Source: Actinophytocola xinjiangensis
GTDB taxonomy: Bacteria > Actinomycetota > Actinomycetes > Mycobacteriales > Pseudonocardiaceae
DNA: 64,000 nucleotides
Direction of reading: 5' to 3'
NCBI RefSeq assembly: GCF_001921215.1
Contig: NZ_MSIF01000004.1
Coordinates: 186,001 to 250,000, forward strand
Shown: one piece after another, positions 10,073 through 59,755 of the stretch
Layout: each line of letters opens with the position of its first letter
Numbering within the stretch: position 1 is the first letter of the stretch
Position numbers and translations under genes: made by a program
The notes under the pieces: generated by a model
What the model was told of the DNA's origin: nothing
Seen by the model: the letters and a program-made list of their open reading frames with translations, nothing else
Database searches by the model: none

Positions 10073-11110
10073 TCAGTGGTCGCGGCGGGTCACCAGGCGG
10101 GCCAGCGCGGCCAGCTCGGTGGCGGCGATGCCGTGGTCGCCGTGGTCGAGCTGGTCGAGGGCGTGGGCCAGCAACCGGTCGGCCTCGGCCTGGCTCCAGT
10201 CCCGGCCGCCGGCGTCGGCCACCAGTGACGCCGCGCGCGCCACCTCCTCGTCCGACAGCGGACCGGACCGGCCGTAGAGCGCGGCCAGCTCCCGCCCGGG
10301 TGCCGAGTCCGAGGCCATGGCGAACACCACCGGCAGGGACTTCTTGCGGTTGCGCAGGTCCGAGAACACCGGCTTGCCGGTCACCGCCGAGTCGCCCCAG
10401 ATGCCCAGCAGGTCGTCGACGTGCTGGAAGGCCAGCCCGAGGTGTTCGCCGAAGGTGCGCAGCCGGCCGACCGCGGTGTCGCTCGCCCCGCCGAACAGTG
10501 CCCCGAGCGCGCACGAGCACCCGATCAGCGCGGCGGTCTTGTGCGCGGCCATCGTCTGGCACTCGGCCGGCTCGACGGTGTCGCGCTGCTCGAAGTCCAT
10601 GTCCGCGCTCTGCCCGTCGACCAGGTCCTGCACCGCCGCCGAGAGCATTCGCATGCCGCGCCCCGACTCGGCGTGCCCGCTGGCGGCGAGCACGTCCAGC
10701 GCCAGGGTGAGCATCGCGTCGCCGGCCAGGATCGCCGCGCCGACCCCGAACAGCCGCCAGGCGGTCGGCCGGTGCCGGCGGGTCGCGTCGCCGTCCATCA
10801 CGTCGTCGTGCAGCAGCGAGAAGTTGTGCACCAGCTCCACCGCCACCGCCGCCGGCACCGCCTCACGCGGCGAGCCGCCGGTGACCGCCGCGCTCAGCAG
10901 GACCAGTGTCGGCCGAATGGCCTTGCCGGCCGGGGCGGTCACCTCCTCGCCGTGCTCGTCGGACCAGCCGAGGTGGTAGCCGGAAATCCGGCGCATCGAC
11001 TCCGGCAGCGTGTCCACCGCCGCCCGCAGCGCCGGGTCGATCATCGCCCGGCTCCAGGCGAGCGTCTCCTGGGCGTAGGACGCACCGGGGTGCAGCTCCG
11101 GCGCGGCCAT
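10073..11110 (-). CDS. Polyprenyl diphosphate synthase, probable family 2B encapsulin cargo
   Basis: 345 residues from the ATG at 11110, one base after the upstream encapsulin stop. All-alpha trans-prenyltransferase that would build a short linear prenyl diphosphate from IPP and DMAPP. The first aspartate-rich motif is intact ([10 protein letters not shown]) and the second reads [10 protein letters not shown], lacking the third Asp of a classical DDxxD, with [16 protein letters not shown] after it, as is usual in encapsulin-linked prenyltransferases. A Phe five residues before the first motif suggests a C15-C20 product (inference). The region ahead of the catalytic fold is short (about 45 residues, [11 protein letters not shown]...), whereas some family 2 cargos have long disordered loading tails. 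Product and loading are unproved. Confidence 0.88.
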
Positions 11111-11111
11111 G

Positions 11112-12509
11112 TCAGCGACCGACCTCGACGTGCTCGAGCACACCGAGCGCGTCGGGAACCAGTACCGCGCACGAGAAGTACGCGCTGACCAGGTAGGAGA
11201 TGATCGCCTTGTCATCGATGCCCATGAACCGCACGTTCATGCCCGGCGACACCTCGTCGTCGATGCCGGTCTCGTGCAGGCCGATGACGCCCTGCTCCTG
11301 CTCTCCCAGGCGCATCACGATGATCGAGCTGAGGTGGTCGTCGGTCACCGGGATCTTGTCGCACGGCAGGATCGGCACGCCGCGCCAGGACTGCACCGTG
11401 GAGCCGGAGACGTCGATGTTGGCCGGGTAGAGCTTGCGCGCGGTGCACTCGCGGCGGAACGCGGCGATCGTGCGCGGGTGGGCCAGGAACAGGTCCGACC
11501 GACGCCGCCGGGACAGCAGCTCGTCGAGGTCGTCGGGGGTCGGCGGGCCGGTGCGGGTGAACACCCGCTGCCTGAGGTCGGCGTTGTGCAGCAGGCCGAA
11601 CTCCCGGTTGTTGACCATCTCGTGTTCCTGGCGTTCGCGCAGGGCCTCGACGGTCAGCCGGATCTGCTGCTCGGTCTGGTTCATCGGGTCGTTGTAGAGA
11701 TCGGCGACCCGCGAGTGGACCTTGAGCAGCGTCTGCACGACCGACAGCTCGTACTCGCGTGGCGTGAGCTCGTAGTCGACGAACGTGCCCGGCAGGTCGA
11801 CCTCGCCCGCGTGCCCGGAGGACAGGTCGATCGACGCCTCGCCGTGCTTGTTGCTCGGCCGGTCCGGCCTGGCCAGCTCGGCGGCGATGTGCTCGCGCAG
11901 GCTGTCGGACTGGCCGTTCATCTGCTGGAAGGCCTGGGCGGCCAGCACCAGCACGGTGACCGGGGTGACCGCCTTGACGGTGAAGTCCCACTCGTCGGCC
12001 GACCCGGCGAGCACCTCGTTGCCGAAGTAGGCGCCCTCGGCGAGCACGTCGAGCACGACCGGGTCGCCGTAGGAGCCGGTGCCCAGTTTCTGGACCTTTC
12101 CGTGCGCCAGCAGGAACAGCCGGTCACGCGCCTGGCCCCGCTCGACGATCACCTCACCCGGCTCGAAGCGCTGCTGGGTGAACCGTTGGGCCAGCGCGTC
12201 GAGGGCCGCGTCGTCGGTGAACTCGCGCAGCAGCGGCAGCTCGCGCAGTTCCGCCGGGACGACCCGGATGTCGTCGCCGACGTTGACGAAGGTGAGCCGG
12301 CCGTCGCCGACGGTGAGCGTGAGGCGGCGGTTGACCCGGTAGGTGGCGCCCTTGGCCTCGACCCACGGCAGCATGCGCAGCAGCCAGCGCGGGGTGATGC
12401 CGCGCATCTGCGGGACGGTCTTGGTGGTGGTGGTGAGGTTGCGTGCGGCCTCGGTGCCGAGGCTGCGGCGGATCGTGGCCTCGATCCGTACGTCGGTCTC
12501 GATGGTCAC
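11112..12509 (-). CDS. Family 2B encapsulin shell protein (downstream copy) with cyclic-nucleotide-binding-like insert
   Basis: 465 residues. The N-terminal arm ([25 protein letters not shown]) and C-terminal half ([24 protein letters not shown] to [25 protein letters not shown]) match the HK97-fold family 2 (SrpI-like) shell. Residues ~95-215 form an inserted cNMP-binding-like beta-roll ([22 protein letters not shown]...). The phosphate-binding cassette reads [17 protein letters not shown]: the canonical FGE(L/I)AL...R-x-A pattern is not kept and the key Arg is absent, so cAMP binding is doubtful. It shares much sequence with the upstream copy and is separated from it by 6 bp, consistent with a two-component shell. 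Confidence 0.9.
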
Positions 12510-12515
12510 GGCTGG

Positions 12516-13934
12516 TCAGTCCTCCCGGCCCAGCTCGACGTTCTCCAGGACGCCGAGCGCGTCGGGCACCAGAATCGCGGCCGAGTAGTACGCGCTGACC
12601 AGGTAGGACACGATGGCCTTCGGGCTGATTCCCATGAACCGCACGGAAAGCCCCGGCTGGTACTCGTCGGGCAGGCCGGTCTGGTGCAGGCCGACGACAC
12701 CCTGCTGCTGCTCGCCGACGCGCATCAGCATGACCGAGCTGGTGCGGGTGGGGGACACGGCGATCTTGTTGCACGGGAAGAGGGGCACGCCCCGCCAGGC
12801 CGGCACGCGGTGGCCGCCGACGTCGACGGACTCGGGGTAGACGCCGCGCTTGCTGCACTCGCGGCCGAACGCGGCGATGGTGCGCGGGTGGGCCAGGAAG
12901 TGTGACGGTTGCTTCCAGACGACGGAGAGCAGGTCGTCCATGTCGTCGGGGGTGGGCGGGCCGGAGCGGGTCTGGATGCGGTGGCCGAGGTCGGCGTTGG
13001 CCAGCAGGCCGAACTCCGGGTTGTTGACCATCTCGTGTTCCTGGCGCTCGCGCAGCGCCTCGATGGTCAGTCGCAGCTGCTGTTCGACCTGGTCCATCGG
13101 CTCGTTGTAGAGGTCGGCGACGCGGCTGTGCACGCGCAGGACCGTCTGGGCGACCGACAGCTCGTACTCGCGCGGGGCGAGTTCGTAGTCGACGAAGGTG
13201 GCCGGCAGGTCGGGCTCGCCGCTGTGGCCGGAGGCGAGCTCGATGTCGGCCTCGCCGTGCGGGTTGCGGGGGGCGAGCTGGCCGGTCCGGAAGCGCTCCA
13301 GCTGGGTGCGCAGCGTCTCGGACTGGTCGAGGAGCTCGTCGAACGCGTTCTGGGGGAGCATCAGGACGGTGCACGGCGTGATGGCCTTGACCGTGTACTC
13401 CCACATGCTCTGCGGGTCGGCGAGGGTTTCCGCGCCGAAATGGTCGCCGTCGGCCAGCGTGCCCAGACTGGTGTCGTTACCGTAATGCCCGGCACCAATT
13501 TTGTTCACTTTTCCATGGGCGATCAGGAATGCCTGATTGGATTCATGTCCGAACTCGACGATGACGTCCCCGGCGGCGTATTCGCGTTGTTCGAAACGGT
13601 CGGCCAGAGTGGTCAGGACATCGAGGTCGTCGTAGCCGCGCAGGATGGGCAGCTCGCCCAGTTCGGCGGGAATTACCGCGACGTCGCTGCCGGTGTTGAC
13701 GAAGGTCACGCGGCCGTCGCCGACGGCATAGGTGAGGCGGCGGTTGACCCGGTAGGTGCCGCCGGAGACTTCGATCCAGGGGAGCATGCGGAGCAACCAG
13801 CGGGACGTGATGCCCTGCATCTGCGGAACGGACTTCTTCGTCGTCGCGAGATTCCGCGCGGCGGTCGTCGCCAGGCTCTGCTGGCTGTTCCCGTTCTGGT
13901 CGACGTCGGGCGCCACTGGTTCGGTCACCGTCAC
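12516..13934 (-). CDS. Family 2B encapsulin shell protein (upstream copy) with cyclic-nucleotide-binding-like insert
   Basis: 472 residues from the GTG at 13934 (a GTG at 13928 is also possible; a 29-residue upstream extension has no family support). Same order as its neighbour: short variable tail ([15 protein letters not shown]), N-arm [25 protein letters not shown], cNMP-like insert around residues 100-220, then the shell core ending [25 protein letters not shown]. The cassette reads [18 protein letters not shown], again without the consensus Arg. First gene of the operon. Some homologues have been annotated as EshA-like or Crp-like regulators, but no DNA-binding domain is present. Confidence 0.9.
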
Positions 13935-14322
13935 AACGCACACCACCAATCGTTGCTTTGTTTTGCCTAAGGGTGGGAAATAAATGGGGAAGGTTTTCGA
14001 GCAGGGCAAAACTAACACCATTGATCATGGCCCGAAAAGTCGCCCAACAGGGTGAGTACCCGCCGGAGTGGGGCATCGGGAGAAACCAGGGAAATAATCA
14101 CTGGGTGCAGTGAGAGGGGGGCGGCAATGGCTCGCGTAGCGCAAGTCCACTGCTCCACTCGGGGAGACTTCCTCGGCACTCGAGTGGTTTTCGCCGGGAC
14201 GGGCGAGGTCGCTGACCGTGCGCTGTTCGCCGTCGCCTGGGCCGTTCGGGTAAGCGATCTACGGTGCGTCCGGCTCGGGAAACGCTGACGGTGTACCGGT
14301 TCGCGTCCGGAGGGGGACGGGC
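13935..14322. promoter_or_regulatory. AT-richer leader and promoter region of the encapsulin-isoprenoid operon
   Basis: About 390 bp without a convincing gene. The ~110 bp next to the encapsulin start are clearly AT-richer than the surroundings (TTTGTTTTGCC-like and AAATAAATG patches near 13955-13990), as expected for a promoter reading leftward. I could not assign -35/-10 boxes with confidence. A possible 53-codon plus-strand frame at 14127 has no recognisable features. Confidence 0.4.
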
Positions 14323-17583: not shown

Positions 17584-21196
<3,613 letters not shown>

Positions 21197-21723: not shown

Positions 21724-22986
21724 CTACCCGACCGTCCACTTCTGGTTGGCCGTGCCGGCGCACTCCCAGATCTGGAGCCGGGCGCCGTTGGCGGAGCTGT
21801 TGTCGGTGACGTCGAGACACTTGTTGGCCGCGAGGTTGACGATGTCCCGCGCGCCGCTGACCGTCCAGCGTTGGGCGCCGCTGCCGTTGCAGTCCCACAG
21901 CTGGATCTTGGCGCCGTTGGCGGTGGACCCCGAGGTGACGTCCAGGCACTTGCCCAGCGCCCGGATCGAGCCGTCGCCGTTGACCGTCCAGCGCTGCGCG
22001 GCGGTGCCGTTGCAGTCGTAGAGCTGTACCGGGGTGCCGTTGGCGCTGCTGGCCCCGGCGACGTCGACGCACTTGCCGCCCAGGCCGCGGATCGCCGAGC
22101 CGTCGCCACCGCCGCCGCTGGTGTCGTTGGTGACCCGCACGTAGTCGACGGTCAGGGTGTTCGGGAACGGGGTGTTGCCGTCCGGGTCGCCGGGCCAGTA
22201 GCCGCCGACGGCCAGGTTGAGGATCATGAAGAACGGCTTGTCGAAGACCCACTGGCGGCCGCCGAGGTCGGCCGGGGTCCGTGTCTGGTAGACGTTTCCG
22301 TCCACCGACCAGACGATGCGGTTGGGTGACCACTCGACCTTGAAGGTGTGGAAGCCGTCGGCGAACGGGCTGCCGATGGAGTAGCCGGCGCCGATGCCGC
22401 CCGAGCCGGAGTAGCCGGGGCCGTGCAGGGTGCCGTGCACGGTGTTCGGCTCGAACCCGACGTTCTCCATGATGTCGATCTCGCCGCTCTGCGGCCAGCC
22501 GACGTTGCCGATGTCGTTGCCCAGCATCCAGAACGCGGGCCACATGCCCTGGCCCCGGGACATCTTCAGGCGGGTCTCGAAGGTGCCGTAGGTTTGGGTG
22601 AACCGGCCGGCGGTGTTGAGCCGGGCGGAGGTGTACTGGCAGGTTCCGTACCAGCACTGGTAGTTGTTCGGGTTCTCCCGCCGGGCGGTGATGACCAGGT
22701 TGCCCTGGCCGTCGTGCGCGGCGTTGCGGGTGGAGTTGGTGTAGTACTGCCGTTCGTGGTTGTTGACGTTGTCGCCGGTCTCCAACTGCCATTTGGAGCC
22801 GTCGACGGGGGCGCCGGCGGCCGCGTTGAACTCGTCGGCGAACGTCACGGCGGTCGTGCCGGGATCGGGCTGGGGGACGGGGGCGCCCTGGGCCTGGGTG
22901 CCGGTGGTCAGCGTGCTGACCAGAACGGCCGAGGCGAGGGCGCCGATGATGGCGGGAAGTCGTCGAATGCAGGGGCGTGAGGACAT
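21724..22986 (-). CDS. Secreted GH16 beta-1,3-glucanase with C-terminal ricin-B (CBM13) domain
   Basis: 420 residues from the ATG at 22986, preceded by GGTGGTGA; the upstream ATG at 23040 lies on the dre palindrome and is rejected. Signal peptide with RRLPAIIGALASAVLVSTLTTGTQA. GH16 catalytic domain at residues ~50-280, with active-site motif GEIDIMENVG (ExDxxE). A Gly linker then leads to a ricin-type lectin domain with three repeats, each with a CLDV-type start and a QRWTV-type end. Likely degrades laminarin or fungal cell-wall beta-glucan outside the cell. Two palindromes upstream point to tight repression. Confidence 0.92.
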   Translation of the reverse strand: MSSRPCIRRLPAIIGALASAVLVSTLTTGTQAQGAPVPQPDPGTTAVTFADEFNAAAGAPVDGSKWQLETGDNVNNHERQYYTNSTRNAAHDGQGNLVITARRENPNNYQCWYGTCQYTSARLNTAGRFTQTYGTFETRLKMSRGQGMWPAFWMLGNDIGNVGWPQSGEIDIMENVGFEPNTVHGTLHGPGYSGSGGIGAGYSIGSPFADGFHTFKVEWSPNRIVWSVDGNVYQTRTPADLGGRQWVFDKPFFMILNLAVGGYWPGDPDGNTPFPNTLTVDYVRVTNDTSGGGGDGSAIRGLGGKCVDVAGASSANGTPVQLYDCNGTAAQRWTVNGDGSIRALGKCLDVTSGSTANGAKIQLWDCNGSGAQRWTVSGARDIVNLAANKCLDVTDNSSANGARLQIWECAGTANQKWTVG

Positions 22987-23010
22987 CTGTGTCACCACCG
23001 ACGAACTAGG

Positions 23011-23031
23011 TTTGTTGTCCGTGACAACAAA
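23011..23031. promoter_or_regulatory. 9-bp inverted repeat upstream of the GH16 glucanase
   Basis: Arms TTTGTTGTC (23011-23019) and GACAACAAA (23023-23031) with a CGT spacer, 25 bp before the glucanase start codon and just downstream of the dre site. Likely binding site of a second regulator, type unknown. Confidence 0.55.
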
Positions 23032-23039
23032 GAATGCCA

Positions 23040-23051
23040 TGGTCTAGACCA
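23040..23051. promoter_or_regulatory. dre-type palindrome TGGTCTAGACCA upstream of GH16 glucanase
   Basis: Perfect 12-bp palindrome matching the core of the DasR-responsive element known from streptomycetes (ACTGGTCTAGACCAGT-like). DasR is a GntR/HutC repressor released by glucosamine-6-phosphate. Position 54-65 bp upstream of the glucanase ATG fits repression. Confidence 0.75.
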
Positions 23052-23139: not shown

Positions 23140-24516
23140 TCAGACCGTGTCGATGTCCTTGACCGTCCGTGGGGCCGGCACCTTGGCCCACTGCACCGGA
23201 AGATCCGGCTCGGTGAGGTCGAGCAGTTCGTAGAGACTCTGGCGCAGGATCATCGCCGACGAGCCGCGCGCCGCCGAGACCCGCTCGGCCGCCGCGACCC
23301 ACTGCACCGACGAGGTCATCCGCGCGCTGTAGAGCTGTTCGTAGAGCGGCTGGGCGTGGTCGAGGATCGGGCTGACCTTCGCGATCTCCGAGATGATCGA
23401 GTCCGGCGCCACCTCGTCGGCGGCGAAATGGCTCAGCAGCAGCGGAACCCCGACCGCCGCCGCGTACACCGAGATCGAGCTGTGGTCGGCGATCAGCAGG
23501 TCGGCCGCGCTGACCAGCCCCCGCCAGTCCTCGCCGACGTCGATCAGGTCGACCCCGGCGTCGCGCGCCTCCCGCACCCAGGCCCTGACCTGGCGGGCGC
23601 TGTGCTCGGCCCAGATCGCCGGGTGCAGCGTGGCGATCACCCGGTGGTTGGCCGGCAGTTCCGCCGGCAGCCGCACCAGCAACTCGTGGTGGGTCGCGAA
23701 CAGCGACCGCTGCCCCCAGGTGGAGGCCACCGCGACCAGGACCTGGCCGCGCCGCACCCCGAGCAGTTCCCGGTAGCGGTCCCGGTCGGGCAGCGAGGCG
23801 GTGAGCCGGTCCAGGCACGGGTCGCCGGCCAGCACCGCCGCCGGCAGCGATTCCGGGCACTGGCGGCGCAACGTGTTCAGGTTGTCCTGGTGCGGCAGGA
23901 CCAGCGCGTCGAACACCCGCCGGCCGTTGCGCAGCAGCGAGCGGCGGTCCAGGCCGTAGACCGGACGGTCGTTCTTGTCGCCGTTCCAGTCGGTCAGCGG
24001 CCAGAGCTTGTTGAACCCGGCGCCGTGCGGGACGGCGAACCGGAAGGTGGCGTTGACCCGTTCCATCTGGTGCAGGCTCGCCGAGATCGCCAGGTCGAAG
24101 TCCTGGCGTTGGGCCTCCTCCCACGGGATCACCTTCACGTCCAGCGCCTGTAGTCGCTGGTGCACGCCGTGGCCGAGCTGGTCGGGGACCTGGGTGTAGA
24201 CCAGCTGCACCCGCCGGTCGATCTCCAGCAGCGGGACGATGTCCTCCAGCCGCATCAGGCTGGCGACCGTGTGCACCGCGACCAGCACGACCCGGTGGGT
24301 GTCGACCGTGCGGAACGGCCCGGCTTCGGACTGAACCCTGACTGGCTGCGGGTTAACCGTCCGCCGCCACAGCTGGTTGGCGGACTCGCCCAGCAGGGCC
24401 AGTCGGGCGCTGGTGGGCCGGAAGTTGCGAATGCCGAGGCTGGCGCGGCGCGGACGGCCGGGCGGACCGTCGGGCGGGAACTCGGCCGGGTGGGGACGTT
24501 GCGGGGTCACGTCCAT
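23140..24516 (-). CDS. CDP-glycerol glycerophosphotransferase-like protein
   Basis: 458 residues from the ATG at 24516; the frame is open to a TTG at 24693 but the extra N-terminal part is low-complexity. The C-terminal half carries TagB/TagF-like features: VAVASTWGQRSLF, VIATLHPAIWAEHS, and LLIADHSSISVYAAAVGVPLLL, with the His and DxSS pattern that binds CDP-glycerol in teichoic-acid polymerases. The first ~75 residues are polar and Pro/Arg-rich. No wall teichoic acid genes are adjacent, so it may act on another surface polymer. Start is uncertain. Confidence 0.75.
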   Translation of the reverse strand: MDVTPQRPHPAEFPPDGPPGRPRRASLGIRNFRPTSARLALLGESANQLWRRTVNPQPVRVQSEAGPFRTVDTHRVVLVAVHTVASLMRLEDIVPLLEIDRRVQLVYTQVPDQLGHGVHQRLQALDVKVIPWEEAQRQDFDLAISASLHQMERVNATFRFAVPHGAGFNKLWPLTDWNGDKNDRPVYGLDRRSLLRNGRRVFDALVLPHQDNLNTLRRQCPESLPAAVLAGDPCLDRLTASLPDRDRYRELLGVRRGQVLVAVASTWGQRSLFATHHELLVRLPAELPANHRVIATLHPAIWAEHSARQVRAWVREARDAGVDLIDVGEDWRGLVSAADLLIADHSSISVYAAAVGVPLLLSHFAADEVAPDSIISEIAKVSPILDHAQPLYEQLYSARMTSSVQWVAAAERVSAARGSSAMILRQSLYELLDLTEPDLPVQWAKVPAPRTVKDIDTV

Positions 24517-24722
24517 GACAGCGGTGGCTTTCGCTGAGGTCGTGACCAGCGGTGTTGTCGCGGCCGTCCCGCGCGGCGGCCCGTCGCCGGCTGGTCGGCC
24601 AGTGGAATTCGCAGTCTCATGGCGCCCCCTCGACTCGTGGCCCACCCGCACAAGGGTATGACGAAAGGGTACGACTCTTCGAATCGAAGTCAAGGGTCTT
24701 TGGCTTCGTATCTACCGGTGGG

Positions 24723-25940
24723 TCAAACCGCAACGGTCGAGTCGACGCGCAGGGCGAACGCCAGTGCGCCCTGCGCACCAGCCAGCAGTCCCAGCTCCGA
24801 GCCGACGAGTTTGGTCGGCGCGGCGTGGTCGTACATGCCGCGCAGTGAGAACAACTGCATCTCGTTGGTGGCCGGACCGACCAGCAGGTCCGCCGCGCGG
24901 CCGAGTTCGCCGCCGAGCACCATGATGTCCGGGTTGAGCAGGTTGGCGACCCGCGCCAGCGCGAGCCCGATGTCGCGGCTGGCGTCCTGCAGGATGCGGG
25001 TGCAGACCTGGTCGCCGCGCTTGGCGCGCTCGATCATGCCCTCCAGGCTGGTCGGCAGGTCGACCCGGTAGCCGGTGTAGGCCTGCCGAACCTGTTCCAC
25101 CAGCCGGTTCCCGCCGACGATCGTGTCCAGGCAGCCCCGGTTGCCGCAGCGGCAGACCGTGCCCTGGGGGTCCATCGTGACGTGCCCGATCTCGCCGGCC
25201 AGCCCGTGGCGGCCTCGGTAGATGGCACCGTTGGTGATCAGCCCGGAGCCGATGCTGGTCGAGGCCTTGATGAAGTACATGGACTCCACCGAGCGGCCGG
25301 CGCCGTAGACGTACTCGCCGTAGGCGGCCAGGTTGGCCTCGTTGTCCACGATCACCGGCACGTGCGGGAAGTGGTCGCTGAACCGGTGCCGGGGGTTGCC
25401 GCTGAGGTCCCAGTCCAGTGAGGACGCGACCTGGGTGACCATGCCGGTCCGGGGGTCGATGGCGGCCGGGATGCCCAGGCCGATCGACACCACGTGCTCG
25501 GCGTCCAGGCCGGTCTTGGTGGCCAGGTCCCTGATCAGCCGCGCGCTCTCGCGCACCCAGGCGTTGTCGCCCTGTTCGGCGCCGAAGTTGGCGGTCTCGT
25601 ACTCCACCGAGGAGGTGTCCACCCGGCGGGCGGCGACCGTCAGGCCGTTGTGGTTGACCTCGATGCCGACCGCGACCCCGCGTACGGCGCCGACCCGCAG
25701 CTTCTTGCCGCGCTCGTTGTCGCCGCCGCTGTCCACCCGCAGGACGTTCTCGCCGACCAGTTCGTTGACCAGGCCGGAGACCGTGGCCTGGGACAGGCCG
25801 GTGAACCGCGCGATGTTGACCTGCGTGTTCGGCTCGACCATGACCGCACGGATGATCTTGCGCCGGTTCGCGTCGCGGAGCGAGTCCGACGGCTTCCAGA
25901 GCAGTTCTCGTGCGTCGTGGGTCGTACTGCTGGACGTCAC
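24723..25940 (-). CDS. ROK-family transcriptional regulator
   Basis: 405 residues from a GTG with AAGGAGG upstream. N-terminal winged helix (NIARFTGLSQATVSGLVNELV), then a ROK domain with zinc motif CRCGNRGCLDT, GEIGHV and the ASTSIGSGLI phosphate loop. It stands back-to-back with the lasso peptide cluster across a 291-bp gap that holds two inverted repeats, so it could regulate the cluster; that link is inference, since ROK proteins normally sense sugars. Confidence 0.9.
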   Translation of the reverse strand: MTSSSTTHDARELLWKPSDSLRDANRRKIIRAVMVEPNTQVNIARFTGLSQATVSGLVNELVGENVLRVDSGGDNERGKKLRVGAVRGVAVGIEVNHNGLTVAARRVDTSSVEYETANFGAEQGDNAWVRESARLIRDLATKTGLDAEHVVSIGLGIPAAIDPRTGMVTQVASSLDWDLSGNPRHRFSDHFPHVPVIVDNEANLAAYGEYVYGAGRSVESMYFIKASTSIGSGLITNGAIYRGRHGLAGEIGHVTMDPQGTVCRCGNRGCLDTIVGGNRLVEQVRQAYTGYRVDLPTSLEGMIERAKRGDQVCTRILQDASRDIGLALARVANLLNPDIMVLGGELGRAADLLVGPATNEMQLFSLRGMYDHAAPTKLVGSELGLLAGAQGALAFALRVDSTVAV

Positions 25941-25983
25941 GGCCCACGCCCTCCTTCGAGCTGAAGTGGATCGCGCGCCAGCT

Positions 25984-26038
25984 TACCGGGAACCCCGGTA
26001 CTCAGCTCAATGAGGCCACATGTTCGGATTGAACATGT
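25984..26038. promoter_or_regulatory. Two inverted repeats in the ROK / lasso-cluster intergenic region
   Basis: First: TACCGGG-AAC-CCCGGTA (25984-26000). Second: ACATGTTC-N5-GAACATGT (26018-26038). They lie next to the ROK gene start and about 190 bp before the lasso precursor. The remaining gap (26039-26220) is comparatively AT-rich and holds a possible -10 (TAGGAT near 26172). Confidence 0.55.
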
Positions 26039-26231
26039 TAGCTCGTCAGTATGTCGGTGTCCGCACCTTCGGTGGGATGTCCCGTGGGCATCGAATTCAA
26101 GAAACTTCCCGCTCATGATTTGGGTAACGCCCAGGGTTATCGCCCCTAGCGAGATCCGGAAGGTCGCCGGTAGGATTGACGCACCGTTAAGTGCATGCGA
26201 CTGTTGGTAATCGCAGTTCTGGAGGTGACCG

Positions 26232-26384
26232 ATGGCTGACAATGACATCGACATCAGGCCCGAGCCGGCGCTCGTGGAGTCGCCCTACGAAGCGCCCGTG
26301 GTGTTCGATTTCGGGCCGGTGTTCGAGGTCACCCGGGGCAGCGGATCGGGAAACTCCGACGCCAACGGGCAGGAATACAGTTAA
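26232..26384 (+). CDS. Lasso peptide precursor (A)
   Basis: 50 codons with an ideal GGAGGTGA site at 26221-26228. The leader is residues 1-35 and carries the recognition pattern Y19-x-x-P22-x-V24 then G28, F31 and the conserved Thr at -2 (leader end FEVTR). The predicted core is GSGSGNSDANGQEYS: Gly1 can be joined to Asp8 to give an 8-residue ring with a 7-residue tail ANGQEYS. The core is acidic and free of Cys and Trp, so no disulfide. Only Tyr14 and perhaps Gln12 or Glu13 could act as steric plugs. Cyclase and fused protease follow at once, which makes the assignment firm; the exact cleavage site is predicted. Confidence 0.9.
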   Translation: MADNDIDIRPEPALVESPYEAPVVFDFGPVFEVTRGSGSGNSDANGQEYS

Positions 26385-26429
26385 CGCGCCCCGCGTCGCT
26401 GCCCCGGCTCGTGTCCGTCAGAGGTTCGG

Positions 26430-28193
26430 ATGAGTGTCGCCGGCCTGTGGAACGAGGGGCGCGCCGTGGTGGAGAACCTCACGCTGACCGCCGGGGAGCC
26501 GACCCGCACGGTGGGTTCGGATGATGCCAGGCTGGTCGTTCTCGGGCACTGCCTGGCCGCCGAGGCCGAACTCGCCGACTGTCTGCGGACGGTGACGCGC
26601 ACCCGTCGACTGGACGCGAACTCCTCGGCCTGGCCCGGCTGTTACTCACTGGCTGTCCTGTTCCCGCACGAGTTGCTGCTGTTGACCGACCCGGTCGGGC
26701 AGTTCCCGTGGTACCTCGCGCCGGTGCCCGGCGGGCAGTGGTTCGGCTCGTCGGCGGTCGACCTGGCGCTGCGGGCCGGCGCGCGCGTCGACCGCGACCG
26801 GCTGGCCATGGTCATCGCCTGCGACGACGTGCTCGGGCTCGCGGACAACGGCACCGAGTTCGCCGGGGTGCGCCGGCTGCCGGTGGGCAGCGCGGTCACG
26901 GTGAATTCTTCCGGCATTTCGGTGACCCCGTGCGGCGGGCTCGACGTCGGTGTCGAGAACAATTCCGACGACGCGGCGGAACGATTACGTGAGTCCTTGG
27001 TTCGGGCTATTGACGCGCGCACCGGAAATGGTCGACCAATCACCGGCGACTTCAGTGGAGGAATTGATTCGTCGACCCTTCTCCTGCTCGCCCTGCGGGC
27101 CGGTGTGCCGGTGTCCGGGTTCACTTTCCAGAATTCGGACATCGAGGCCGAGGACGACCTGGTGTGGGCCCGGCACTTCGCCGCCCAGGCCCCCGGATTG
27201 ACCCACCACTCCGTGGTGGCCACCGACGAAGAGCTTCCTTACCAGATCCTCTCCGGACCGGGTGAGCAGCCGCATCCGGCGGCCCTGGCGGCCGGGCCGC
27301 TGCGCGCCCGTCTTCGACTGGCACGCGATCACGGCTCCACCCATCTGGTCGGCGAGGGCGGGGACCTGGTGCTGGGCGCCCCGCCGGCCTACCTGGCCGA
27401 TCTCGCCCGGCAGGGCGAGTGGGCGGCGCTGTGGCAGCACTGCCTGCGGTGGGGCCGGGTGCGCCAGTGCTCGCCGCTGTCACTGCTGCGCCGCGCGCTG
27501 GCCGTGGGGCGGGTCAGCCGCCGGCAGGCGCTGCGCGCACTGGCCACCGAGATCGTCCTGGCGGCCCCGGCGCGGGACCGCACGGCGTGGCACCTCGGCG
27601 CGATCGGCTACTGGGAGCAGCCGCGCGGCCGGTGGCTGACCCGCCGCGCCAGGACCGACCTGGCCGACCACGTCCACGCCCTGGCCGACGACCGGCAGGC
27701 CGACCCCGCCGACGGCCTCGGCGTGGCCGACGCGGTGACGTTGAGCCAACTGCGCACGCAGGTCGTCGCCGAGCGGGCCGTGCGCGCCACCGGCCGCGAG
27801 TTCGGTGTGGACGTCCACGCCCCGTACCTGGACAGCGACGTCGTGCGGGCGTGCCTGGCGCTGCCGGCCTGGCGCCGCGCCGACCCGGCGGTCGCCAAAC
27901 CCCTGCTGCGCACGGCGTTGACCGGCCTGGTCCCCGACTCCGTGCTGACCAGGACCACCAAGGGCAACTACGTCCGCGGCGCCTACGCCGGTGTCCGCCG
28001 CGCGGCGCCCGCGCTGCGCGGCCTGCTGGCCGAGCCGGTCGCCGCCGACCACGGCCTGCTCGACCCGGTGCCGGTCCGCGCCGTGCTGGACAGCGCCGTC
28101 CAGGGCCTGCCGACCCCGTGGCGGGCGTTCAACCAGGTCCTGGCGGTCGAGCTGTGGCTGCGTGACCTGACGGCGAAGGGCCTGCTCCGGTGA
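26430..28193 (+). CDS. Lasso peptide macrolactam synthetase (C, asparagine synthetase homologue)
   Basis: 587 residues from an ATG 45 bp after the precursor. The C-terminal half has the PP-loop SGGIDSSTLL (Ser209 onward) that adenylates the ring-forming Asp side chain, and the LVGEGGDLVLG and VDVHAPYLDSDVVRACLAL stretches of asparagine synthetase B-like cyclases. The N-terminal glutaminase-like domain lacks the Cys2 nucleophile, as expected for lasso cyclases. It contains a TTA codon at 26985 and a patch around 26950-27070 with unusually A/T-ending codons. The stop overlaps the next gene. Confidence 0.93.
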   Translation: MSVAGLWNEGRAVVENLTLTAGEPTRTVGSDDARLVVLGHCLAAEAELADCLRTVTRTRRLDANSSAWPGCYSLAVLFPHELLLLTDPVGQFPWYLAPVPGGQWFGSSAVDLALRAGARVDRDRLAMVIACDDVLGLADNGTEFAGVRRLPVGSAVTVNSSGISVTPCGGLDVGVENNSDDAAERLRESLVRAIDARTGNGRPITGDFSGGIDSSTLLLLALRAGVPVSGFTFQNSDIEAEDDLVWARHFAAQAPGLTHHSVVATDEELPYQILSGPGEQPHPAALAAGPLRARLRLARDHGSTHLVGEGGDLVLGAPPAYLADLARQGEWAALWQHCLRWGRVRQCSPLSLLRRALAVGRVSRRQALRALATEIVLAAPARDRTAWHLGAIGYWEQPRGRWLTRRARTDLADHVHALADDRQADPADGLGVADAVTLSQLRTQVVAERAVRATGREFGVDVHAPYLDSDVVRACLALPAWRRADPAVAKPLLRTALTGLVPDSVLTRTTKGNYVRGAYAGVRRAAPALRGLLAEPVAADHGLLDPVPVRAVLDSAVQGLPTPWRAFNQVLAVELWLRDLTAKGLLR

Positions 28194-28915
28194 GTGGTTT
28201 CGCCGTCCCGGAGGCCGTCCACGCCGCCCCCGACAGCAACGGCGACCTGGTCCTGCTCAACGGCGCGACCGGCCGCTGGCACAAGCTCAACCGCACCGGC
28301 CGCGCCTTCTTCGAGGCCGTGCGCGCCGGGGCCACCATCGACCAGGCCGTCGCCACCCTCACCGCCCGCCACCCGACGGTCCCGGCCACCCGCATCCGCG
28401 CCGACGTCGAACGGCTCGTCGCCACCCTCGTCGCCCGGGGCCTGCTGACCCTGTCCGTCGACGACGCCGACACCGGCCCGCGCAACCCGGCCGCCGTGGC
28501 GATGACCGCCCCCGCCGCCACCCCGGCCCCGGTCGCGTCCCGCCGCCTGGCGGCCATCGTGGCGTTCGTGCTGGCCCTGGTCCTGCTGCGGCTGCCGTTC
28601 CGCGTCACGACACCGACCGTGGCGCGCCTGCGCCGCTGGCTGGCCCACCGCCCGGCGACACCGGGAGAGGCGGGCGCGGCGCTGTCGGCCACCTACTGGG
28701 TCAGCCGCTCCTACCCTGGCCGGGTCGCGTGCCTGGAGGTGTCCCTGACGGCCGTCCTGACCGCCGCCCTGTGCGGCCACGCGGTCGACTGGTGCTTCGG
28801 CACGGCCGTGGACCCGCAGACCTTCCACGCCTGGATCGAGGTCGACGGCGTCCCGGTCACCGACGCCACCGAGGACCCCATCCCCCCGACCTACCGCCGC
28901 GTCCTGGCGGTGTGA
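28190..28915 (+). CDS. Fused lasso RRE-leader peptidase (B1-B2)
   Basis: 241 residues from a GTG overlapping the cyclase stop. Residues 1-85 are a PqqD-like RRE (NGDLVLLNGATGRWHKLNRTG...FFEAV) that binds the leader. A hydrophobic segment follows (LAAIVAFVLALVLLRLPF, ~residues 118-136). Residues ~140-241 form the transglutaminase-like leader protease: Cys in GRVACLEVSL, His in TFHAWIEVDG, Asp in PVTDAT. In most actinobacterial clusters B1 and B2 are separate genes; here they are one polypeptide with a possible membrane anchor. No ABC transporter follows, so export must rely on another system. Confidence 0.9.
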   Translation: MSGFAVPEAVHAAPDSNGDLVLLNGATGRWHKLNRTGRAFFEAVRAGATIDQAVATLTARHPTVPATRIRADVERLVATLVARGLLTLSVDDADTGPRNPAAVAMTAPAATPAPVASRRLAAIVAFVLALVLLRLPFRVTTPTVARLRRWLAHRPATPGEAGAALSATYWVSRSYPGRVACLEVSLTAVLTAALCGHAVDWCFGTAVDPQTFHAWIEVDGVPVTDATEDPIPPTYRRVLAV

Positions 28916-29106: not shown

Positions 29107-31710
29107 TCAGGCGGGGCCGAGAGCGTCGAGCTGGGCGCGTACCCGGTCCACGCCCGGGTTTCCCAACTCGGTCAGCATGGCCTCGGTGAGCAGGTAGGAC
29201 TCCCGGGCCAGGGTCGGCTCGCCGGCTCTCTCGTGGAGCTCGGCCATCGCCCAGTGGGCGTCCGCCTCGCCCAGGGGGGACCTGACCGTGCGCATGGCGG
29301 CCAGGGTCTCCTCCAGGTCGGTTCTGGCCTGCGCCCAGGCGCCGGTGCCGGTGCGGGCCCGGCCCAGCACCAGCACGGCGCGGGCGAGGTTGTACGGGTC
29401 GGGCGGGGTGAGCGCGGCCAGCTCGGCGCGGGCCGCGAGCGCGTGCTCGATCGCCTCCGCCGGGCGGCCGGCCTCGACCAGCGCCCTGGCCACGCTGATC
29501 AGCGCCAGGCCCACGCTGCGGGTCTCGCCGACCTCGCGGTAGCCGGCGAGCGCGCGCCGGAAGTGTTCGATCGCCAACTCGGTGCGGCCCTGGTCCAGGT
29601 AGGCGAAGCCGAACCGCTCGGTCGAGCCGGCCACCCGGTGCCGGTCGCCGAGGTGCTCCCAGAGACCGGCGGCCCGGCGCATGTGTTCGAGGGCCTCGTC
29701 GTTGCGGCCCAGGGCGTGGAACAGCAGGCCGAGCCGGTCCTGGGCCTCGGCCTCGGCGGCGGTGTCCGGACCGCCCCGGGTCGCCTCGACGGCCAGCAGG
29801 TCGAACTGCATCCAGTCGTGGTAGTGGGTGCGGACCAGGAACAGGCCCCACATGGCGTCGGCGAGCTGCCAGGTCGTGGCCGCCAGGCCGTGCTCGTGCG
29901 CGGTTCTGGCGGCGGCCAGCAGGTTGCGCCGCTGGCGGTCCAGCCAGTCCAGCGCCTCGGTGTGGTCGGTGAACCGGACCTCCTCGACCGGGCCGTGTTC
30001 GATGTCGCGGCGGGGAACGCGCCGGTGCGGGGTGACCAGCCGGCCCGCCTCGGTGGCCGAGGCCAGGTACCAGTCCAGCATGCGGCGCACCGCCAGCAGC
30101 CGCTCGGCCGGCGAGTCCAGCTGGTCGGCCAGCGACTGGGCGTGCAACCGGATCAGGTCGTGGAAGCGGTACTGGTCCTCGCCGGTCTCCTCCAGCAGGC
30201 TCGCCGTCAGCAACTCGTCGACCAGCGGTTCGGCGTCGGGCAGCGAGGTGTGCAGCACGGCCGCCGCCACCCCGGTGTCGAAGTCGTTGCCCGGATGCAG
30301 GCCCAGCAGCCGGTAGAGCCGGGCCGCCGGGGAGGACAGCGCGTGGTAGGACACGTCGAACACCGCCTTGACCGACAGGTCGTCGCTGAAGCTGAGCCGG
30401 GCGAGCCTGCGCTGCTCGTCGACCAGGTCCGCCACGACTTTCTCCAATGTCCACTTCGGACGTGACACCAGCCGCGCCGCGGCCACGCACAGCGCGATCG
30501 GCAGCCCGCCGCACAACGTGACCAGCTGCCGCGCCGGCCCGGCCTCCGCGTCGACCCGCCGCCGGCCGACCGTCCTGGCCAGCAGCGCCACCCCGTCACC
30601 GGCGGCGAGCCGGTCGACCTGCACGAACCGGGCACCGTCCGCGATCAGCGCGCCGAGCTGCGAACGGCTGGTGGCCACCGTGAGCGCCTGCGCCGAGGCC
30701 GGCAGCAGCGTGCGCACCTGCTCGGCCGACGCCACGTTGTCCAACAGCATCATCAGCCGCCGCCCGGCGGTCAGCGAACGGAACATCGTTGCCTGCTCGT
30801 CGGGGTCGAGCGGAACCTGCTGGGGGGCGACGCCCAGCGCCCGCAGGAACCGGCCGAACACCTCCGCCAGCTCCACCGGACGGCCCGGCCCACCCAGATC
30901 GGCGAACAGCTGACCGTCCTCGTAACGCTCGCGCACCCGGTGCGCCCAGTGCAGCGCGAACGCCGTCTTGCCCACCCCCGGCGGGCCGACCAGCACCACC
31001 AGCCGCGCGCGGCGGTGCGCCCGGTCCAGCTCCGCCAGCTCACCGACCCGGTTGACGAAACTCGTCACGTCCGGGCGCAGCTGACGCGGCGAGTCCCGCG
31101 CCGCGGCCCCGGCGATGACCGGCGGGGTGGCGGTGCCCGGCAGGTGGATCCACGCCGCCAGCCGCGTGCGTTTCACCTCGACGGTCACCGGGTGGTAGGT
31201 GGCGGGGTCGATGCCGCGGTGGCGGTGGCGCACGATCCCGTCGTAGACCGTGCCGGACACCGCCAGCGCCAGCGGCACCGGCGAGTGCCGCAGCGCGTCC
31301 CGCAGCTGGTCGGCGTCGAGCAGCCGGCACGCCTCCACCAGGTCGGTGCCCGACAGGCCGTGCTGGTCGACGCTGATCTCGCCGGCGTGCACCGCCAGCC
31401 GCAGCCGGATCCGGTGGGCCAGCGGCGCGCCCCGGTTGTGCTCGGTCAGCGCCGCCGACAGGTGCCCGGGCAGCGGGTCGAGCAACAGAACCTTGGAGAT
31501 CTCGGCCGGGACCAGCACGATCGCGCCGTCGCCCCGGTCCTCGTGGGTGCACGCCGACCACGGCACCCCGGCGGAGTCGAACGCCTCGCGCACCAGCTCG
31601 TACACCCGTGCCCGTACGGCGCTCTGCGCGCCGTCGTCGCGGTAGGGGTCGCTGAACCCCTCCACGTCGAACGCCACGACGGAGCGGTGGGTCGGGTACT
31701 GGTGGTGCAT
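29107..31710 (-). CDS. STAND protein: nucleotidyl-cyclase-like domain, NB-ARC ATPase, TPR array
   Basis: 867 residues. Residues 1-190 resemble a class III cyclase domain; both metal-binding aspartates are suggested by AFDVEGF (near residue 15) and EDRGDGAIV (near 64). An NB-ARC module begins around residue 225, with Walker A GPPGVGKT, Walker B LMMLLDN and winged-helix MHD-like region LYRLLGLHPGNDF. The last ~300 residues are tetratricopeptide repeats. No DNA-binding domain, so this is not a SARP/AfsR regulator. The build resembles STAND signal-switch or conflict proteins. Transcribed toward the lasso cluster, 191 bp from its end. Catalytic activity is unproved. Confidence 0.85.
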   Translation of the reverse strand: MHHQYPTHRSVVAFDVEGFSDPYRDDGAQSAVRARVYELVREAFDSAGVPWSACTHEDRGDGAIVLVPAEISKVLLLDPLPGHLSAALTEHNRGAPLAHRIRLRLAVHAGEISVDQHGLSGTDLVEACRLLDADQLRDALRHSPVPLALAVSGTVYDGIVRHRHRGIDPATYHPVTVEVKRTRLAAWIHLPGTATPPVIAGAAARDSPRQLRPDVTSFVNRVGELAELDRAHRRARLVVLVGPPGVGKTAFALHWAHRVRERYEDGQLFADLGGPGRPVELAEVFGRFLRALGVAPQQVPLDPDEQATMFRSLTAGRRLMMLLDNVASAEQVRTLLPASAQALTVATSRSQLGALIADGARFVQVDRLAAGDGVALLARTVGRRRVDAEAGPARQLVTLCGGLPIALCVAAARLVSRPKWTLEKVVADLVDEQRRLARLSFSDDLSVKAVFDVSYHALSSPAARLYRLLGLHPGNDFDTGVAAAVLHTSLPDAEPLVDELLTASLLEETGEDQYRFHDLIRLHAQSLADQLDSPAERLLAVRRMLDWYLASATEAGRLVTPHRRVPRRDIEHGPVEEVRFTDHTEALDWLDRQRRNLLAAARTAHEHGLAATTWQLADAMWGLFLVRTHYHDWMQFDLLAVEATRGGPDTAAEAEAQDRLGLLFHALGRNDEALEHMRRAAGLWEHLGDRHRVAGSTERFGFAYLDQGRTELAIEHFRRALAGYREVGETRSVGLALISVARALVEAGRPAEAIEHALAARAELAALTPPDPYNLARAVLVLGRARTGTGAWAQARTDLEETLAAMRTVRSPLGEADAHWAMAELHERAGEPTLARESYLLTEAMLTELGNPGVDRVRAQLDALGPA

Positions 31711-58186: not shown

Positions 58187-59755
58187 ATGAGGCGTTCCTT
58201 CGTACTGGTCATGGCCGCCGTGCTCGCCTGCCTGGGCACGGTCGCCCCGGTCGCCACCGCCGCCGGTGAGCGGGCCGCGTTCGTCAAGACCGCCGACTGG
58301 GGCTCCGGCTGGGAAGGCCGGTTCACCGTCACCAACGGCGGGACCACCCCGATCAGCTCCTGGCGGGTCGAGTTCGACCTGCCGGCCGGCACCGGCGTCG
58401 GCAGCTACTGGGACGCCCTGCTCACCTCCAGCGGCAGCCACCACACCTTCGTCAACCGCGAGTACAACGGCACCCTCGCCCCCGGCGCCAGCGCCACCTT
58501 CGGCTTCCTCGGCACCGGGCCGGGCAGTCCGACGAACTGCCTGGTCAACGGCGCCGACTGCGGCGGAGGTGGCGGCCCGGACCCGGGCGCCCCGGCCACC
58601 CCCGGCAACGTCCGCGTGACCGCCACCACCGGCACCGCCATCACCCTGGGCTGGAGCGCCACCCCTGGCACGGTCACCGGCTACCGCGTCTACGAGGGCA
58701 ACACCGTCGCCGCCACGACCACCGCCACCACCGCGACCTTCGGCGGCCTGCCCGCCTGCACCAGCCGCACCTACACCGTCGCCGCCTACAACGCCACCGG
58801 CGAGTCGCCGCGCAGCGCCCCGGTCACCGGCACCACCACCGGCTGCCCGCAGGCCGACCTGCCGCGCCACTTCCTCACCGGCTACTGGCACAACTTCGTC
58901 AACCCGGCCACCGAGCTGCGCCTGTCGGCCGTGCCCGACGAGTACGACCTGGTCGCCGTGGCCTTCGCCGAGGCCACCGGCACCCCCGGCCAGGTCAGCT
59001 TCGGGGTCGACCCCGGACTGTCCAGCGCGCTCGGCGGCTACACCGACGCCCAGTTCAAGGCCGACGTGACCGCGCTCAAGGCCAAGGGCAAGAAGGTCAT
59101 CCTGTCGGTCGGCGGTGAGGCCGGCCGGGTGTCGGTCGGCGACTCCGCCTCGGCCACGAACTTCGCCAACAGCGTGCGCGCGGCCATGACCGAGTTCGGT
59201 TTCGACGGCGTGGACATCGACCTGGAGAACGGTCTCAACCCGACGTACATGGCTCAGGCACTGCGCAACCTGCGCGGCCAGGTGGGCGCCGGACTGATCA
59301 TCACGATGGCCCCGCAGACCATCGACATGCAGTCCACCGGCGGCTCCTACTTCGCGCTCGCCCTGAGCATCCGCGACATCCTCACCGTCGTGCACACCCA
59401 GTTCTACAACTCCGGCTCGATGCTGGGCTGCGACCAGTCCCAGGCCTACGGCCAGGGCACGGTCAACTTCATCACCGCGCTGACCTGCATCCAACTGGAG
59501 AACGGCCTACGCCCCGACCAGGTCGCCGTCGGCCTGCCCGCCGGGCCCGGCGCGGCCGGCGGCGGGATCGTCGCCCCGTCGGTGGTCACCAACGCGCTGG
59601 ACTGCCTGGCCAGGGCCACCAACTGCGGCACCTTCCGGCCACCCAGGACCTACCCGGACATCCGCGGCGCCATGACCTGGTCGATCAACTGGGACGTCAC
59701 CAACGGCAACAACTTCGCCCGCACCGTCGCCCCGCACCTGGACACCCTGCCATGA
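58187..59755 (+). CDS. Secreted GH18 chitinase with N-terminal CBM2 and FN3
   Basis: 522 residues from the ATG at 58187, behind GGAGGT. Signal peptide RRSFVLVMAAVLACLGTVAPVATA. Residues ~28-115 are a family 2 carbohydrate-binding module (GWEGRFTVTN...SSWRVEFDLP...PGASATFGFLG). Fibronectin III at ~135-220. GH18 barrel at ~225-520: catalytic motif DGVDIDLE with Glu347 as proton donor. Secreted chitin-degrading enzyme; controlled by the dre sites. Followed by a second chitinase gene with ATGA overlap. Confidence 0.95.
   Translation: MRRSFVLVMAAVLACLGTVAPVATAAGERAAFVKTADWGSGWEGRFTVTNGGTTPISSWRVEFDLPAGTGVGSYWDALLTSSGSHHTFVNREYNGTLAPGASATFGFLGTGPGSPTNCLVNGADCGGGGGPDPGAPATPGNVRVTATTGTAITLGWSATPGTVTGYRVYEGNTVAATTTATTATFGGLPACTSRTYTVAAYNATGESPRSAPVTGTTTGCPQADLPRHFLTGYWHNFVNPATELRLSAVPDEYDLVAVAFAEATGTPGQVSFGVDPGLSSALGGYTDAQFKADVTALKAKGKKVILSVGGEAGRVSVGDSASATNFANSVRAAMTEFGFDGVDIDLENGLNPTYMAQALRNLRGQVGAGLIITMAPQTIDMQSTGGSYFALALSIRDILTVVHTQFYNSGSMLGCDQSQAYGQGTVNFITALTCIQLENGLRPDQVAVGLPAGPGAAGGGIVAPSVVTNALDCLARATNCGTFRPPRTYPDIRGAMTWSINWDVTNGNNFARTVAPHLDTLP

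Follow-up and report, generated by a model that had tools for sequence, protein, structure and literature searches.

A lasso peptide gene set in Actinophytocola xinjiangensis, linked to a ROK-family regulator and a candidate operator palindrome

What would the short gene set at positions 26232-28915 of an Actinophytocola xinjiangensis contig make, and which of the genes around it belong with it? We addressed this question in a window of 64,000 nucleotides (G000:C34:186001-250000) from the 9.5 Mb genome; coordinates below are those of the window. Judged by its domains and motifs, the segment is a real lasso peptide gene set, encoding a precursor, a macrolactam cyclase and a fused leader-binding/protease protein. 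We consider it probable that the set yields a lasso peptide with an 8-residue ring, that it belongs to an albusnodin-type branch and that it stands under its own ROK-family regulator, acting through a palindrome whose control includes a TagF-like transferase gene. Two points slightly lowered our confidence: of the twelve transferase genes, four are divergent forms, and the ROK-proximal site of the window is weak.

26232-26384, plus strand: lasso precursor A (leader 26232-26336; core 26337-26381, GSGSGNSDANGQEYS; stop 26382-26384), called on NF033521, its start, its ribosome-binding site and homologues with the same leader motif
26430-28193, plus strand: lasso macrolactam cyclase C (NF033561, PF00733, invariant SGGxDS residues)
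28190-28915, plus strand: fused B protein, PqqD-like leader-binding domain plus leader protease (PF05402, PF13471, NF033537, invariant Cys181/His213)

Precursor A has 50 amino acids, and a strong ribosome-binding site, GGAGGTGA, precedes its ATG. It passed the NCBIfam model lasso_leader_L3 (NF033521) narrowly, with 19.6 bits at a cut-off of 19. The preliminary description had placed the leader signals YxxP, G and Thr at -2 correctly: YEAP occupies residues 19-22, followed by Gly28 and Thr34, with Arg35 at -1 and Gly36 (base 26337) as residue 1 of the core. This leader motif was found together with Gly1 and an Asp/Glu at core positions 7-9, and beside an asparagine-synthetase-like cyclase and a PqqD/protease B protein, as in other lasso systems. 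Cyclase C scored 339 bits (cut-off 300) with NF033561, the albusnodin/ikarugamycin family macrolactam cyclase model, and 121 bits with PF00733; its SGGxDS residues are among the invariant columns of an alignment of 18 sequences. The B protein matched PqqD (PF05402, 47.3 vs 23.4 bits), Transglut_core3 (PF13471, 60.5 vs 26 bits) and NF033537 (77.8 bits, cut-off 33), with Cys181 and His213 invariant in 17 sequences. Since the PqqD and the transglutaminase-fold protease domains both lie in 28190-28915, a single gene joins the leader-binding domain to the protease. The order precursor, cyclase, B protein is identical in the relatives L039-L056, and the gene set is far above chance. A compact 2.7 kb cluster with overlapping genes had been proposed; the three genes were borne out by the domain matches, but the overlap only in part, as cyclase and protease genes share 4 bases whereas a 45-base gap separates precursor from cyclase. 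Nor does that outline take in the conserved surroundings, namely a ROK regulator, a palindrome and, in most 8-ring loci, a TagF-like gene.

By analogy with known lasso enzymology, the leader of A would bind the PqqD-like half of the fused B protein and the protease half would cleave after Thr-Arg. The cyclase would then adenylate Asp8 and link it to Gly1, leaving a seven-residue acidic tail. We scored a fused B protein in 15/15 8-ring and 25/27 9-ring loci. We do not claim the fusion as a novelty. The test was blind to fused versus split forms in the 38 other loci, whose leader-binding domain has diverged beyond its reach; in addition, a single albB is named for albusnodin in a review (PMC9266682). 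Split B proteins are reported in another paper for the listed clusters outside proteobacteria (PMC5067487).

The core was compared within a set of 17 8-ring cores, the window included, taken from precursors beside related cyclases (two of them, L069 and L108, are identical). Gly1 was present in 17/17, Gly5 in 16/17 and Gln12 in 14/17; position 8 was Asp in 16 and Glu in one. Twelve cores have 15 residues, four have 14 and one has 16. The conservation of Asp8 supports this residue as the ring closer, so that the proposed core with its Gly1-Asp8 ring and short acidic tail (seven residues in the window) is well supported. The same comparison did not bear out the suggestion that threading depends on Tyr14 as a large plug, at least not as a general rule, since position 14 is Tyr in five cores, Phe in five and neither in seven, and six of the 17 tails have no Phe, Tyr or Trp at all. 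Fifteen residues with an 8-residue ring are not unusual for a lasso peptide, as sungsanpin and chaxapeptin illustrate. Rings of 7-9 residues are given for lasso peptides in PMC8498205. The core had not been recognised among named lasso peptides, and this stood: the string SDANGQ was absent from the open-licence PMC papers searched, and the shorter DANGQ, among the matches listed, was always part of a name.

The missing bulky plugs in much of the 8-ring half raise the alternative of a branched, unthreaded macrolactam. In its favour are the six tails without aromatic residues, the four cores of only 14 residues and caulosegnin I, which has an 8-residue ring and, according to PMC13352647, seems to unthread on heating. 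On the other hand, Gln12 might suffice as a small plug for a ring of eight residues. Moreover, lasso enzymes fold the core before the ring is closed. We regard an unthreaded product as quite unlikely.

The cyclase places the window in a defined group. In a maximum-likelihood tree of 83 rows (quick method, SH-aLRT support only, no bootstrap), it sits in a branch of 45 rows with SH-aLRT 99, which divides into an 8-ring half of 17 rows (SH-aLRT 99), with one record present twice, and a 9-ring half of 28 rows (96). Not part of this branch are the cellulonodin-type loci, with their PIMT-like methyltransferase, and the albusnodin-type loci, with their acetyltransferase. The window shares three features of this ROK-linked branch: its cyclase lies among the 45 rows, its ROK lies in the linked clade and it has an operator-like palindrome.

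Albusnodin, the acetylated lasso peptide of Streptomyces albus, resembles the predicted window product in its cyclase family (NF033561) and its polar, Gly-rich ring. Three loci (L114, L132, L137) encode a core that we take to be that of albusnodin, and their cyclases are outside the ROK branch. In albusnodin, Lys10 is the target of the acetyltransferase, and no product was made once this enzyme was lost (PMC9266682). The window core, however, has no Lys, no GNAT gene was seen among the window neighbours tested, and the precursor reached 12.8 bits with the albusnodin model NF033525, below the cut-off of 30. Cellulonodin-2 and lihuanodin, which carry an aspartimide, have related cyclases and a core in which Asp is followed by x-Asn; Thermobifida cellulosilytica, the cellulonodin-2 species, is represented by L116. 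Their PIMT-like methyltransferase is described, in the same review, as acting on Asp6 adjoining Thr7 (PMC9266682), whereas positions 6-7 of the window core are Asn-Ser. They differ further in that no such methyltransferase (gene family f3) was found among the window neighbours tested and in that their cyclases lie outside the branch.

A further comparison is with the 9-ring sister group, GSSSSGNADANSQYYW. It shares with the window the fused B protein, a ROK of the same clade, the palindrome type in most loci and the core motif DxNxQ, but it differs in its 9-residue ring, a bulky YYW end and a ROK that in most cases lies ahead of A on the same strand. Its cores, identified in 24 of 28 rows (no precursor was identified for L089, L110, L112 and L119), are nearly constant, with Gly1, Gly6, Asp9, Asn11 and Tyr15 in 24/24 and Trp16 in 23/24. 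The search pattern required D9, A/S10, N11, Y/F14 and Y15, so part of this constancy was built in; the same 24 cores were also found by looser patterns or by reading. Over 118 9-ring pairs with cyclases less than 45% identical, mean identity was 77% for the core, 36% for the last 20 leader residues and 41% for the cyclase. That the core hardly changes between clusters with cyclases of about 41% identity suggests a conserved partner. The genome of the window itself holds a second lasso cluster of the 9-ring type (L057, G000:C12:207000-226999) with core GNSSSGNSDANTQYYW and its own ROK several kilobases downstream. The two halves, one pairing a 9-residue ring with YYW and the other an 8-residue ring with small tails, offer a natural experiment on how ring and plug size vary in concert; both occur in this genome.

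Which regulator might control these genes? The interval upstream of A separates it from a divergent gene:

24723-25940, minus strand: ROK-family regulator, divergent from A (PF00480, 159 bits; in a clade with other lasso-linked ROKs)

The protein has N-terminal winged-helix matches, below cut-offs, and the motifs ExGH and CxCGxxGC, presumably for sugar and zinc binding. A ROK was found in the loci of 44 of the 45 branch rows; none was seen in the locus of L079. It lies upstream of and divergent from the precursor in 16/16 loci (L039-L054), as in the window. In the 9-ring rows it lies within 7 kb of the cyclase in 25/28, usually on the same strand before the precursor; exceptions are the second cluster of this genome, with its ROK downstream, and L076, where it is farther off within the locus. 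All 42 lasso-linked ROKs, including the second one of this genome, form one clade (100/100) in which those of the 8-ring and 9-ring halves separate, as they do in the cyclase tree; the other ROKs found in this genome fall outside.

We further surveyed 390 genomes of the family for close homologues of the ROK (matches of E 1e-70 or better, best four candidates per genome scored) and compared their coordinates by eye with a list of cyclases (best three candidates per genome scored). They occurred at 34 places in 32 genomes, and 31 of the 34 lie within 10 kb of a listed cyclase. Of the remaining three, L188 has the ROK, a transferase-like gene and the palindrome, with no cyclase detected, and L190 has the ROK with neither a transferase-like gene and palindrome nor a precursor-like open reading frame (ORF). 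At L189 (G219:C4), a precursor-like ORF with the core-like end VTSGENLGTGDESGQRAC lies near 8857 on the minus strand, divergent from the ROK and near a TagF-like gene; no cyclase was detected there in 20 kb, and the ORF is perhaps an orphan precursor served in trans.

Three palindromes around the ROK gene are candidates for its operators:

25951-25969, no strand assigned: candidate ROK operator, proximal to the ROK gene, CTCCTTCGAGCTGAAGTGG (15.9 bits; among the training sites of the matrix)
26019-26037, no strand assigned: further candidate operator in the ROK-A interval, within the palindrome ACATGTTCGGATTGAACATGT (arms 8, spacer 5; 13.7 bits; outside the training set)
24674-24692, no strand assigned: candidate ROK operator ahead of the TagF-like gene, ACTCTTCGAATCGAAGTCA (24.0 bits; outside the training set)

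A CTTC-N5-GAAG-like palindrome was present in the interval between ROK and lasso genes in 17/17 8-ring loci. In its shorter form, TTC-N5-GAA, it occurred in the ROK-to-cyclase interval (25940-26260 in the window) in 17/17 loci (the window and L039-L054) and was not found there in L055 and L056 of the 9-ring half. In base shuffles of these 19 intervals it appeared in 1.2 loci on average and in 7 at most. A matrix was built from the 17 8-ring interval sites and then run on sequence outside this training set. It gave sites before the TagF-like gene in 12/12 loci that have this gene (17.2-28.5 bits), and, beyond the 8-ring half, at least 13 bits before the ROK in 17 of the 27 upstream regions scored (L104 and opposite-strand ROKs left out, L116 included though not lasso-linked). 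At 14 bits, at least one site was found in 15/15 8-ring, 21/27 9-ring and 7/38 other loci; the site totals were 26 over 250 kb, 33 over 454 kb and 8 over 627 kb, respectively. Seven other ROK places in this genome, taken as a control, reached at most 9.1 bits (one of them, L146, with a misplaced upstream coordinate). The exact consensus CTTCRANTYGAAG occurs at three places in the whole genome, one of them at 24677 of the window.

Genes, domains, branch, linkage and shared palindrome can be read from the sequence itself. That this palindrome is the ROK operator is our reading from its position only, and the same holds for repression and for a sugar-like ligand. The ROK would bind the CTTC-N5-GAAG-like palindromes and probably repress its own gene and the TagF-like transferase gene; repression of the lasso operon is less certain in the window locus. 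A sugar-type or cell-wall-derived ligand would release it.

Several observations weigh against the regulated lasso cluster as we propose it. Of the window genes tested (15.6-35 kb), none was recognised as an exporter. Constraint in the 8-ring half appears to fall on few core positions, and the core is no more conserved than leader or cyclase (mean identities over 16 rows 46%, 50% and 48%). The matrix was trained on the very regions in which the motif had first come to light, which makes the 17/17 count partly circular; this does not apply to the transferase and 9-ring sites. The best 8-ring site is usually close to the ROK start, so that the case for control of A rests on the shared interval. 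In the 9-ring half, only 9 of 24 loci have a site of at least 12 bits within 650 bases before the core; there, however, the ROK usually precedes A on the same strand. Scores before the ROK stayed below 13 bits in Actinomadura L100 and L117, in Herbidospora L110, L112 and L119, and in L093, L103, L077 and L080. The ROK sites of the window (15.9) and of the second cluster (13.8) are themselves among the weaker ones. Finally, four Lentzea loci carry a distant form of the transferase, 24-32% identical to that of the window, and in four other Lentzea loci of the 8-ring half the transferase was not found.

Some of these points would fit an ordinary albusnodin-type cluster with the ROK and TagF-like genes as mere neighbours, the ROK regulating itself and the transferase in a carbohydrate or cell-wall regulon. 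The strong 8-ring sites lie at ROK and transferase and not at A, L188 combines ROK, transferase-like gene and site with no cyclase detected, and the Lentzea loci that lack the transferase point the same way. Yet the ROK is kept with the lasso genes in both halves despite their differing gene order (divergent versus same strand), nearly all ROK places of the survey are near a cyclase, the ROK and cyclase trees split alike, L189 retains ROK and precursor-like ORF with no cyclase detected, and the nine 9-ring loci do have a site upstream of A. Mere neighbourhood seems unlikely to us. A decaying or silent cluster without product we hold to be very improbable. The lack of a transporter among the neighbours tested speaks for it, as does the relative in Actinophytocola xanthii (L070), with a cyclase match limited to residues 182-578 and a leader Val at -2, a cluster that may be decaying. 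In the window, all three genes are open, the catalytic columns are conserved and A has a good start signal.

Lasso systems as such are known, and this cyclase family has a name; what appears to be new is the ROK link, together with the palindrome and the paired halves. We found no description of them in the open-licence PMC texts searched, which is weak evidence of absence. PMC13381572, considered as a lasso-ROK precedent, was set aside as it concerns a Bacillus gene named rok.

The second presumed target of the ROK is the transferase gene:

23140-24651, minus strand: TagF-like transferase (CDP-glycerol glycerophosphotransferase fold; PF04464, 22.7 vs 22.1 bits); true start uncertain, conserved part about 23143-24342

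Its predicted model (pLDDT 88.7) found TagF, 3l7i-3l7m, as the best PDB folds (E 4e-11, TM about 0.6, 12-14% identity). The likeness to the wall teichoic acid polymerases TagF/TarL lies in this predicted fold, whereas the sequences are only 12-15% identical and TM is about 0.5-0.6; when the PDB was searched by sequence, no match fell below E 0.2. The gene was present in 12/16 8-ring loci (window, L059-L066, L068, L070, L071), with 56-69% identity to that of the window in seven relatives; in the 9-ring loci, a range of 7 kb showed no such gene. The family is common (233/390 genomes at E 1e-20). Its nine best copies (at least 57% identity, window included) are all lasso-linked; the tenth (54%, on C5 of this genome) is not.

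We tentatively suggest, with low confidence, that the lasso peptides of this branch are conserved and serve in signalling or act on the envelope, and are not arms-race antibiotics. The ROK would sense a cell-wall-polymer sugar, or else the lasso peptide, and switch on lasso and TagF-like genes together, and the transferase would build the target polymer of the peptide, protect the producer or attach polyol-phosphate to the peptide. If true, this would be a sugar-sensing lasso regulon, possibly with a new lasso modification. In culture many lasso clusters stay silent, with no known switch. Here, one regulator gene and a short palindrome are common to most of a branch that spans several actinobacterial families, and deletion of this single gene might therefore wake its clusters.

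On the other side of the gene set lies a further candidate:

29107-31710, minus strand: NB-ARC/TPR regulator-like protein (PF00931, TPR; NF053617 (AfsR) and NF041717 (HaaT) both below cut-off), module membership uncertain

It is adjacent downstream in L039, L041-L043 and L045 as well. We did not retain it as a module member: in L192 and L193 a 72-73% identical copy sits next to a TagF-like gene, and neither a ROK nor a lasso gene was detected there. Its link may be to the transferase alone, and L192/L193 may represent a transferase-regulator pair of its own. In the Lentzea loci L065, L067, L069, L071, L072 and L108, a ClpP-like gene (family f9, one member identified, in L067) follows soon after the lasso genes, twice in L067; neighbouring genes are also conserved there, so this maybe reflects mere chromosome order.

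Farther off in the window, tandem encapsulin shell genes (11112-12509 and 12516-14021, minus strand), SrpI-like and with a cyclic-nucleotide-binding domain, adjoin a polyprenyl synthetase gene (10073-11215, minus strand), the whole spanning 10073-14021. The arrangement resembles that of a two-shell encapsulin of family 2B with a prenyltransferase cargo. The window also encodes carbohydrate-active proteins, a GH2 beta-galactosidase (18440-21196), a GH16 protein with a ricin-type lectin (21724-23040) and a GH18 protein (59752-61503).

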